Assembly: GCA_037447655.1 (NCBI GenBank)
Contig: JBBHKE010001129.1
Coordinates: forward strand, 1 to 64,000
Source of the DNA: Zygnema cylindricum
Taxonomy: Eukaryota > Streptophyta > Zygnematophyceae > Zygnematales > Zygnemataceae
Direction: 5' to 3'
DNA length: 64,000 bases
Below are positions 844-13,587 of the stretch, in pieces. Every line of letters begins with the position of its first letter. Position 1 is the stretch's first letter. The notes beneath the pieces are model-generated. The model ran no database searches, was not told the origin of the DNA, and saw only the letters and a program-made list of their open reading frames with translations. The translations under genes were made by a program, and so were the position numbers.

Positions 844-3800
844 GTAATACCTAAACAAGAAAATGTCAGGAAAATACATCTTGAAATGAAAAGTTTCCAA
901 CAGTTCCCATTCCATGCATACACACTCGAAAAAAAACAAAAAAATTGTTGAAAGCTTTAACTTTAATTCTTGCGAGGACTTAAAACCAAAAAAATAAAAC
1001 TTACTCCTTTCATTGTAGTTGCTTGATAGGTCACTGTTCGAGAAAAGTAACTAAACATCCTGATGATTCCCAGTGATTGCTTAATATAAATTCAATTGAA
1101 ATAAAATGAATTTACAAATTGAAAGAGAACATGATCGATTTTGTCATTTTTGGCCCTAACCAATCAATTTTTTTTATGCACCATGCATATATATATAATA
1201 AAAAATGTACATTTTCCCAAGAAAGAATGGCATTGTCATTAATTTATCGACAGCACGTAAAACATGAAAAGAAAAGGGCTCCGTTAATTATGTTTGCTTG
1301 AGAAGTCACGGTTCAAGAAAAGCAACCACACATCGTGTTGATTTCCTAATGGCTACACAAATAGAAAATGGGTTAGGTTCAGCTTGAATAAAATGATTCT
1401 ACAAACTGAAAGCGAACATTATATGTTATCCACCATCTAGGGGCCTAATCAGTTGAGAATCGTTTATGCATTGATTTTCCCAATATTGCAGTGTTCTATA
1501 ATAAATATGGCTAGCGAAAAAGGTATGAAGGAATCTGAATTTATTGTACATATACTTCTGTCACAATTATTATGAATTACACGGAGGACAACTTGACTGA
1601 TTATCCCATATTTTTATCAAATCGCACACACCATGCAATGAAAACTGAAAACTTGAGAAAGGGAGCAATGTTTGAATGTGCGATATAAAATGAAAACATA
1701 AAAAAATATGGTATTATAATGACAGAAAAAGCGCATAGAATATTTTGAAAAGAAAAGCTATCAGTCTATCACGCATAGGATAGATAGGATCAATTACTGC
1801 CCTATTACCACATTTTGTAGTGTAAATATCAGTGATAGTCCACGTGCATATATAGGCGTCTAGTTTTCTTGGAGTAGAAAATGTATAAAGTTTCCCTTGT
1901 TGGAAAGTGGCCAAATGTGTGATGCACAAATATTTTACTGCACAGGTGAACATATCTTGCCAGATTTAGAAAAAAATCCCATAAGTGATGATTGCGATTT
2001 ATTGTGGGTTCTCCATTGATGATGTGGGACCAGGAAGCATCTTGCTAGAATTCAAAGCTGGGTTGATCGATCAATCAAACAAACTTTCATCATGGAAAAA
2101 CACGACCGACGTATGCAAGTGGTTTAACGTGGTTTGTGAGAACAAGACCGTAACCAAAGTGTAAGTCTTTTGACTTTTTATTGGATGTAATGTGCATCCT
2201 GTGCGATATATAACAGCTTGTGTAACACTAAAAAACATCAGTCATCCATATAAAACAAAGTTTTTTTCTATATTGGGATTATCTATACAAAGAAAGCCCC
2301 AAAGCCCGCCATCAATTCGGTCCTCTACTAGAGAACTAATCAAGTTGAAAGGTTAGCGGTTTTCCTTAATAGCACCACTGAAATGCCTCCTAAGGGGAGT
2401 GAAGGTTCGTCAGATAAATCCTTCCTGGCTCTAACCTGCATTCGAAACTTTATCAATGTTACATGAACACATGTCGATTTATCCATAATTTTCAACTCCA
2501 ACCCTCATGTTGTTTTATGCTTGTCTGATTAGTGGCGCTCAATTTATGCTCTAGTTCCATAAACAACAAAGTGATTCTCAAAGTCTCCTCTTTTGTGATG
2601 CAGGACAATATCGGGAACTGTCTATGGAGGGAACATATCGGAAGCCATAGGCCTCTTAGATACCCTTGTAGAGTTGTACGTGAGAAGATGGGCACTTGTT
2701 TAGGCTTAAATAGAAACTAAAATTCTTGGCAGAATTTCCTTTTTGCTGCATTAGCAGAAGATAAACATGCATGATCATAGTGAAGTCCATAATAAAAATT
2801 TACTTCAATGAACTTGTTTAAAAAAGGATTTGATTCCATGAGCATAACATGGTTGTAACATTTTTTTTTTCTTTCTTTTAGGGATTTATCTTTCAATAAC
2901 TTGAGTGGGCCTCTTCCAACGTCTCTGGGAAATTTACGAAAGCTTAAAATATTGTGAGCATAACCATCTGTTTCCCACACTCCAATTTCTCAGGACAAAT
3001 TCAGTATTATAAATTTAGATTTCTGTGCTCGAAGTAGAGTTATACAATTTTCTATATGGCTGTTATCAATCTCCAAAATGTTGTTTTGAAAAAATGCATT
3101 TAATAAACGAAAATGTATTCAGTGCAAAAATGTGTGGGATTTTTTTACAGTGCGATGAAAGCATAAGCAATCCTACCAAAATTTAAAACTTGAGCGTATC
3201 TCATTTAAGCCTCGTTTTGTTAAACTCTTTTCAATGCCTCTCCTTGGTGTTACTAAACATCCTTTAACCCATTTTAACCCAATTCAACCATAACAGAATA
3301 TGAATGAACATGTAGCAATTACTGCCGCAAAAATTTAAAGGGTGATACATTGCAAGATGCAAATTAGGGCGGAGATGCAGTTTCAAAGAGAAAAAAATCC
3401 AGAATAGTAGCAAACGACATTTTTTGTAAACATTACGTTTATTGTAAACTTATGTTATAGTTGTTGTATCTTAACATTAACTTTCTGAAAACTACGCCAC
3501 ATCCATCGTAAAAGTTGTTATTTGTTTACCCGTTAGGTTCCAACGCAATGTAAACAAGGGTCTTTGTCAGGAAGTGCACCTTCCTTTTTGGGTGAAAAAT
3601 TTAGAGGAAAGCAAACATATGCCAGAAAAAACTCGAAATTTCTTTTGTATATGCATAATTCCGATGCCTCAATTTCAGGCAAATCGCACTCTACTTTATT
3701 GACGTGATTGTTGTTGTGCAGACGCCTCTCTAGAAACAATCTTATAGGTCCAATTCCCTCCGGTCTTATGAGTTTGCCAAGACTCCAAATGTTGTAAGTC

Positions 3801-13587: not shown

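Follow-up and report, generated by a model that had tools for sequence, protein, structure and literature searches.

The first 64,000 nucleotides of contig JBBHKE010001129.1 of the alga Zygnema cylindricum (assembly GCA_037447655.1), referred to here as the window, contain a forward-strand gene at 1988-13587 that joins leucine-rich repeats (LRRs), a papain-type protease domain, EGF-type modules and LysM repeats within one protein. With a probability of roughly 0.5, this gene belongs, with its core intact, to a large modular family of C1A endopeptidases of zygnematophytes whose products would be secreted, anchored on glycans and directed in their cleavage by the LRR-containing head.

The gene comprises 18 exons which join into a single frame of 913 residues with a TAG stop codon ending at 13587. 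Every internal exon boundary is AG/GT, in agreement with GT-AG introns, and the phases agree across the frame, which bears out the one spliced frame of 913 codons proposed in a preliminary description of this DNA. The 72-nucleotide LRR exons were assigned by exon joining and Pfam, and LysM2 and LysM3 by alignment with the relatives P0002 and P0008 described below. The exons, all on the forward strand, are as follows.

Exon 1, 1988-2160 (+): cap at the N-terminal end of the LRRs (LRRNT_2, residues 17-50), with a possible splice acceptor at 1986; kept in loci L041 and L042.
Exon 2, 2604-2675 (+): LRR, 72 nucleotides, phase 2.
Exon 3, 2882-2953 (+): LRR, 72 nucleotides.
Exon 4, 3722-3793 (+): LRR, 72 nucleotides.
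Exon 5, 4012-4083 (+): LRR, 72 nucleotides.
Exon 6, 4231-4302 (+): LRR, 72 nucleotides.
Exon 7, 4921-5267 (+): last LRR, Cys-rich cap and EGF1 (residues 250-292).
Exon 8, 5562-5750 (+): conserved linker ahead of the protease (motif 312-321), followed by the beginning of the mature papain domain with the oxyanion residue Gln353.
Exon 9, 6273-6502 (+): papain domain, catalytic Cys359.
Exon 10, 7584-7727 (+): papain domain, middle part.
Exon 11, 9120-9339 (+): papain domain, catalytic His496 and Asn516.
Exon 12, 9673-9852 (+): EGF2.
Exon 13, 10909-11052 (+): EGF3; Pfam cEGF/EGF below cut-off.
Exon 14, 11456-11574 (+): first part of LysM1; Pfam LysM at residues 682-718.
Exon 15, 12051-12140 (+): second part of LysM1.
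Exon 16, 12432-12539 (+): LysM2.
Exon 17, 12982-13197 (+): LysM3.
Exon 18, 13366-13587 (+): LysM4-like tail and stop codon.

The domain order is an LRRNT cap with LRRs, EGF, linker, papain domain, EGF, EGF and four LysM repeats. Pfam recorded Peptidase_C1 at 133.7 bits (residues 336-543), LRR_8 at 51.8 bits and LRRNT_2 at 35.0 bits (residues 17-50). The plant-type LRRs occupy residues 78-183 and five are encoded on exons of 72 nucleotides, a size that is usual in plant LRR genes. The catalytic set is complete (Gln353, Cys359, His496 and Asn516), and the papain fold together with these Gln, Cys, His and Asn residues places the protein in peptidase family C1A (papain). A search of viral structures returned papain-fold matches only, among the matches named. 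The modelled protein also has 48 cysteines and 13 N-glycosylation sequons.

The three EGF modules and the LysM repeats of the preliminary description stand in part. Three six-Cys modules of EGF type are apparent by eye at approximately residues 250-292, 555-612 and 617-661, and alignment with relatives reveals four LysM-type repeats. Pfam detects one LysM clearly, at 24.6 bits for the whole protein versus a cut-off of 20.9 with no single stretch passing by itself, and no EGF above cut-off, the EGF and cEGF models matching the third module only. Among relatives, the LysM model matched several stretches in P0008 and P0011, and the EGF model exceeded its cut-off in two stretches of P0008 and three of P0006. 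The Pfam scan produced no kinase match in the window protein. Hydropathy in 19-residue segments peaks at 1.57 across the 913 residues of the model, which have no hydrophobic stretch of membrane length, an upstream first exon lying outside the model. The absence of kinase and anchor noted previously was confirmed for these residues, and the protein as modelled, which has LRRs with neither feature, is distinct from LRR receptor-like proteins and kinases.

Single proteins from other algae preserve the arrangement. The transcriptome protein P0002 matches query residues 53-885 with 37% identity and includes LRRs, EGF, papain, EGFs and LysM, the Mesotaenium protein P0008 has the same domain order and matches residues 66-885 with 34% identity, and P0003 matches residues 298-855 with 41% identity. 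Judged by sequence, the similarity of the window protein to these relatives is far beyond chance. A paralogue on contig C1255, with ~67-90% identity per protease exon, possesses in the same order LRR exons that match exons 4-6, the cap-EGF1 exon, the linker, all protease exons, EGF2, EGF3 and LysM1-4. Because the single-protein relatives P0002 and P0008 and the paralogue keep this order, the LRR, papain and LysM parts belong to one gene, and a division into separate LRR and protease-LysM genes was rejected. The fusion of LRR, papain, EGF and LysM parts in one gene, as first described, is upheld by Pfam, by the alignments and by these comparisons. It is highly improbable that the locus is an artefact in which neighboring LRR and protease-LysM genes were joined on paper, or a pseudogene: the failure to find a start exon and the internal deletion in an adjoining copy (copy 2, below) speak for such decay, but the common order in single proteins and in the paralogue, the open frames, the intact splice sites and the purifying selection speak against it.

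The distribution of the family was assessed by searching with residues 300-913, which retrieved 83 proteins from 7996 scored candidates. The best 81 were taken as the family, with P0082, which has an I29 domain, and P0083 excluded; P0084-P0087 and P0089 from a wider profile search extended the family to 86 members. Among the 81 relatives, those with species names are all from Closterium, four carry Mesotaenium gene names (prefix Mesen1, which we take to denote Mesotaenium endlicherianum), and the rest derive from transcriptomes or contigs. The precomputed domains, counted by hand, place LRR and C1 together in 31 of the 81, LysM and C1 in 24, and all three in seven. Within the best 120 of 248 matches in the wider search, nine family members occupied the first ten rows and were followed by papains matched over approximately one-third of the query. 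A search with residues 196-336, which span the cap, EGF1 and linker, gave 120 candidates with no match at an E value of 0.001. Judged from the proteins that were scored and appear in the lists, this multi-domain family belongs to the zygnematophytes. The architecture, first described as unusual, is so in comparison with land plants but not within Zygnematophyceae. Correspondingly, the concern that many proteins of this design might already have been characterized is borne out as to number, since 31 of 81 relatives combine LRR and C1, but none was found characterized. Separately, the Closterium relative P0012 has a legume-lectin domain between LRR and C1, an alternative recognition head, and many other Closterium relatives also list this domain.

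The I29 prodomain (PF08246) gave no match in the window protein at E values up to 1, and it is absent from the domain lists of all 86 members of the family, a set with many partial sequences. It is listed for 103 of the 111 other papains in the wider search, among the matches listed. The 60 PDB matches listed, of 175, all begin at the mature N-terminus, zymogens included. The window protein is not a C1A peptidase of the I29-zymogen type. Instead, a conserved linker segment is located ~40 residues before the catalytic Cys. In 70 domain copies, the window's included, Asn312 is conserved in 55, Phe315 in 63, Arg or His at 316 in 69, Tyr or His at 317 in 68, and Ser or Thr at 319 in all 70. The LRR-C1-EGF-LysM family is defined here by the pattern N-x-[FY]-F-[RH]-[YH]-x-[ST]-x-[GA] before C1, the lack of I29 and an EGF-EGF tail, all of which the window protein displays. 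The strict linker pattern was found in 41 of the 86 family proteins, the others being truncated there or variant, versus 0 of 113 controls. In the predicted model of P0006 (predicted template-modelling score 0.80), the motif block has a mean predicted local distance difference test score of 85. The conservation of the linker and the constraint on it (below) would fit a functional latch or hinge. By eye only, the linker resembles the C-terminus of I29.

The source genome (352.8 Mb in 2689 contigs) was searched for further copies. At least 150 Peptidase_C1 matches were scored from 303 candidates, and exon 9, which encodes the catalytic Cys, had 122 matches (150 scored of 152 candidates) spread over 97 contigs, 20 of which hold at least two. 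The weakest of the 122 may be ordinary papains. Thirty Cys-exon loci were fetched, the window's own included, and other exons were sought within a flank of 1.5 kb: the linker exon was present in 28 loci, the cap-EGF1 exon in 22 and an LRR exon in 17. Among 16 close copies, consisting of the window's and 15 loci, the ratio of nonsynonymous to synonymous substitution rates (dN/dS) was 0.10-0.50 across the regions tested and was never above 1. Values were 0.10-0.22 for the protease, 0.21 for EGF1 and 0.20 for the linker motif region; the last LRR (0.50) and the cap (0.41) are looser than the enzyme. Thus, the family is large in its own genome and is under purifying selection. The uniformity of this selection also accords with the main rival explanation, namely a protease that would work outside the cell to remodel the matrix during expansion of the wall, turnover of mucilage or the cell fusion of conjugation, and in which LRR, EGF and LysM modules are structural anchors that recognize no microbe. 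This alternative is possible rather than probable. In its favor, C1 with LysM is an old green-algal combination, being reported for Chlamydomonas in the available portion of PMC2728734, and a putative cysteine protease is mentioned for the Penium secretome in that of PMC6027541. The 122 Cys-exon matches seem more than a housekeeping enzyme needs, and the LRR end and cap are constrained more loosely than the enzyme, although both facts are compatible with remodelling all the same.

The catalytic residue varies within the family. This position is occupied in 84 domain copies, by Cys in 58 and Ser in 26, and is gapped in a further 18 rows; the His and Asn are retained in every copy that aligns at them. 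A quick tree of 73 copies, with long branches that include the window row, requires at least six Cys/Ser changes, four of which are forced by starred branches. The window gene has Cys359 and so is not a Ser-type papain, and Ser occurs in some Closterium and Mesotaenium relatives. It is unlikely that the protein is in essence receptor-like, with a papain domain that serves mainly as a binding or structural module and proteolysis secondary or lost in many members. The 26 Ser copies, the repeated exchanges on the tree and the Ser in the own-genome paralogue L018 favor that idea, as does Plasmodium SERA5, a Ser-type papain for which PMC4671257 reportedly describes a non-enzymatic role; opposed to it are the Gln, Cys, His and Asn retained by the window gene, the low dN/dS of the C1 exons and the Cys-exon loci, 29 of which among 30 read Cys, even L037 and L038 with their stops. 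A correlated change of Arg316 and Cys359 was considered in view of Arg in 47 of 48 Cys copies and His in 13 of 21 Ser copies, and was rejected: a single Arg/His change suffices on the tree, which hence gives no support for co-change. As a separate observation, P0001 from Closterium sp. Naga37s-1 contains two papain domains, both with Ser at the catalytic place, and EGF and LysM modules between them.

For the modular endopeptidase that we prefer, the following mechanism may be envisaged. The protein would be secreted into the wall or mucilage, where the LysM tail may hold it on glycans that contain N-acetylglucosamine, either matrix glycoproteins or microbial chitin or peptidoglycan. The LRR-EGF head would bind a protein or peptide that is the substrate or the trigger, and the papain domain would cut. 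The linker, in place of the prodomain, may keep the enzyme latent or fix the head against the catalytic domain, and binding or processing would free the enzyme from it. Copies with Ser for Cys may bind as decoys, regulate, or work as enzymes of altered activity. All of this is inferred: that the protein is secreted and acts in the wall or apoplast, that glycans anchor it, and that its cleavage is targeted or gated by a ligand. A more far-reaching version is doubtful, in which zygnematophytes would hold approximately one hundred 'receptor-proteases' that combine an LRR or lectin head with papain and a linker for the prodomain, reading out ligand binding as proteolysis at a glycan-anchored site for kinase-free recognition in immunity or mating, with Ser copies as decoys.

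Several observations weigh against the preferred reading. With the start at ATG 1988 no convincing signal peptide was found, and none could be placed in the window copy. The best upstream open reading frame with a signal peptide begins at ATG 542; its phase does not fit the sole usable acceptor at 1986 and its start is not kept in the paralogue L041, on which grounds a start at ATG 542 via a Ser/Thr/Pro-rich exon was rejected. With neither a placed signal peptide nor an upstream candidate in phase, the window copy may have lost its start. For the C1255 paralogue, the stretch read yielded no counterpart of the LRRNT exon or of the first two LRR exons. Similarly, in the stretches read, C1364 (L039) has LRRNT to EGF2 with EGF3 and LysM not seen, and C1250 (L040) has a LysM4-like exon as its only tail with the His/Asn exon not seen. 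Within the 1.5 kb flanks, the linker exon was not detectable in two of the 30 loci, the EGF1 exon in eight and an LRR exon in 13, and a stop beside the catalytic Cys in L037 and L038 makes these copies look broken. Between the window gene and copy 2, dN/dS is 0.58 for the LysM part and 1.21, on 15 differences, for one LysM1 block. P0088, which has I29, ranked among the family rows of the wider profile search, and one of the controls, P0197, is a 295-residue C1 protein from Closterium that lacks I29. In fold comparison of the P0006 model the motif was covered by none of the 50 structure rows listed, so a linker in the cleft gains no support, and with the P0002 model one propapain row, 4qrg, begins at residue 552 and spans 220 aligned residues, compared with 206-213 for the other plant papain rows.

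The relative P0002 has a hydrophobic N-terminus. A pyrimidine-rich tract, stop-free because of its composition, precedes each of three copies (window 542-843 and 51843-52363, and L041:4429-5500); it could code for a Pro/Ser-rich peptide, and its frame and start differ between copies.

Two further loci in the window, on which the preliminary description was silent (copy 2 at 54.6-63.6 kb and an LRR-EGF fragment at 34-47 kb), are related to the gene.

Tandem copy 2, 54581-63643 (+): LRRNT, one LRR exon, the His/Asn papain exon, EGF2, EGF3 and LysM1-4.
Third LRR-EGF gene or fragment, 34300-47225 (+): scattered LRR exons at ~34.3, 38.9, 40.2, 45.2, 45.9 and 46.2 kb.

Copy 2 is without counterparts of exons 3-10, that is, the other LRRs, EGF1, the linker and the catalytic-Cys exon. 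Its exons keep open frames and splice sites, and those shared with the window gene are 87-93% identical with a dN/dS of 0.19 in exons for C1 and EGF and 0.37 overall. The deletion leaves an LRR exon that closes in phase 2 ahead of one that opens in phase 0, a mismatch that makes copy 2 a probable pseudogene or a gene that depends on a different splice. The last exon of the third gene or fragment, at 46.94-47.2 kb, is of LRR-cap-EGF type; it has a relative at L041:1216-1497, which lies upstream of the C1364 LRR-papain copy. As this relative precedes the C1364 copy, the third gene and the LRR-papain gene may have duplicated as a block. Among the LRR exons of the third gene, the 4 kb at 36000-40000 have extreme GC and AT skew and three minus-strand frames open for 762-884 codons. 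Elsewhere in the window, 20156-23341 and 23894-27074 form a direct repeat of 3.2 kb with 99.6% identity.

If the mechanism is correct, recognition and proteolysis would be united in one extracellular protein, a receptor head and linker having taken the place of the zymogen prodomain. The algae closest to land plants would then sense their surroundings by a different route. Mechanism aside, a family with 122 Cys-exon matches in a genome and no description found represents a sizeable annotation gap in zygnematophyte genomes. The literature searched provided no description of LRR-papain fusions, the missing I29, the linker motif or the Ser variants. The available text of PMC11096116 reports domain shuffling in Zygnematophyceae in general terms, with 209 Pfam combinations unique to the group and 26 combinations that include Lectin_legB; the word 'papain' has 0 occurrences there, 'peptidase' refers in the 12 of its 15 places covered to S15, S8, M1 and S53, and the supplementary tables may list LRR with C1. 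Papain with LysM was already known, whereas the LRR-papain fusion family, the absence of I29, the linker motif, the Ser variants and the Cys-exon count appear new with respect to the literature searched.

The Chlamydomonas Peptidase_C1 proteins with LysM share papain and LysM with the window protein, in the part of PMC2728734 available mention neither LRR nor EGF, and are likened by description only; they agree in kind with the LysM-bearing cysteine proteases of volvocine algae anticipated in the preliminary description. The closest counterparts are P0008 from Mesotaenium, the transcriptome protein P0002, and P0030 and P0084, both from Closterium, which like the window protein have LRR, C1 and LysM in one protein. 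EGF is also listed for P0008 and P0030, I29 is listed in none of the four, and the linker motif is present in P0008, P0002 and P0030 with a variant form in P0084. Relatives of this type are ~28-41% identical to the window protein, and no description of such Zygnematophyceae proteins was found in the literature searched. Ficin, ervatamin, actinidin and papains of the oryzain/RD21 type share the C1A fold and catalytic residues, but plant papains usually have an I29 prodomain, and those of oryzain type a granulin tail, with LRR, EGF or LysM in none listed. Ser replaces the catalytic Cys in some members of the papain-fold SERA family of Plasmodium, an unrelated lineage that offers a parallel only, and likewise in some members of the papain-fold silicatein family of sponges, also an unrelated lineage. 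We know of no LRR or LysM modules in SERA or silicatein. The ectodomains of MIK2, RGFR1, ERL1 and FLS2, with an LRRNT cap and 24-residue LRRs, match the predicted fold of P0002. Unlike these plant LRR receptors, the window model is without a transmembrane span or kinase, and its LRRs are followed by a protease.
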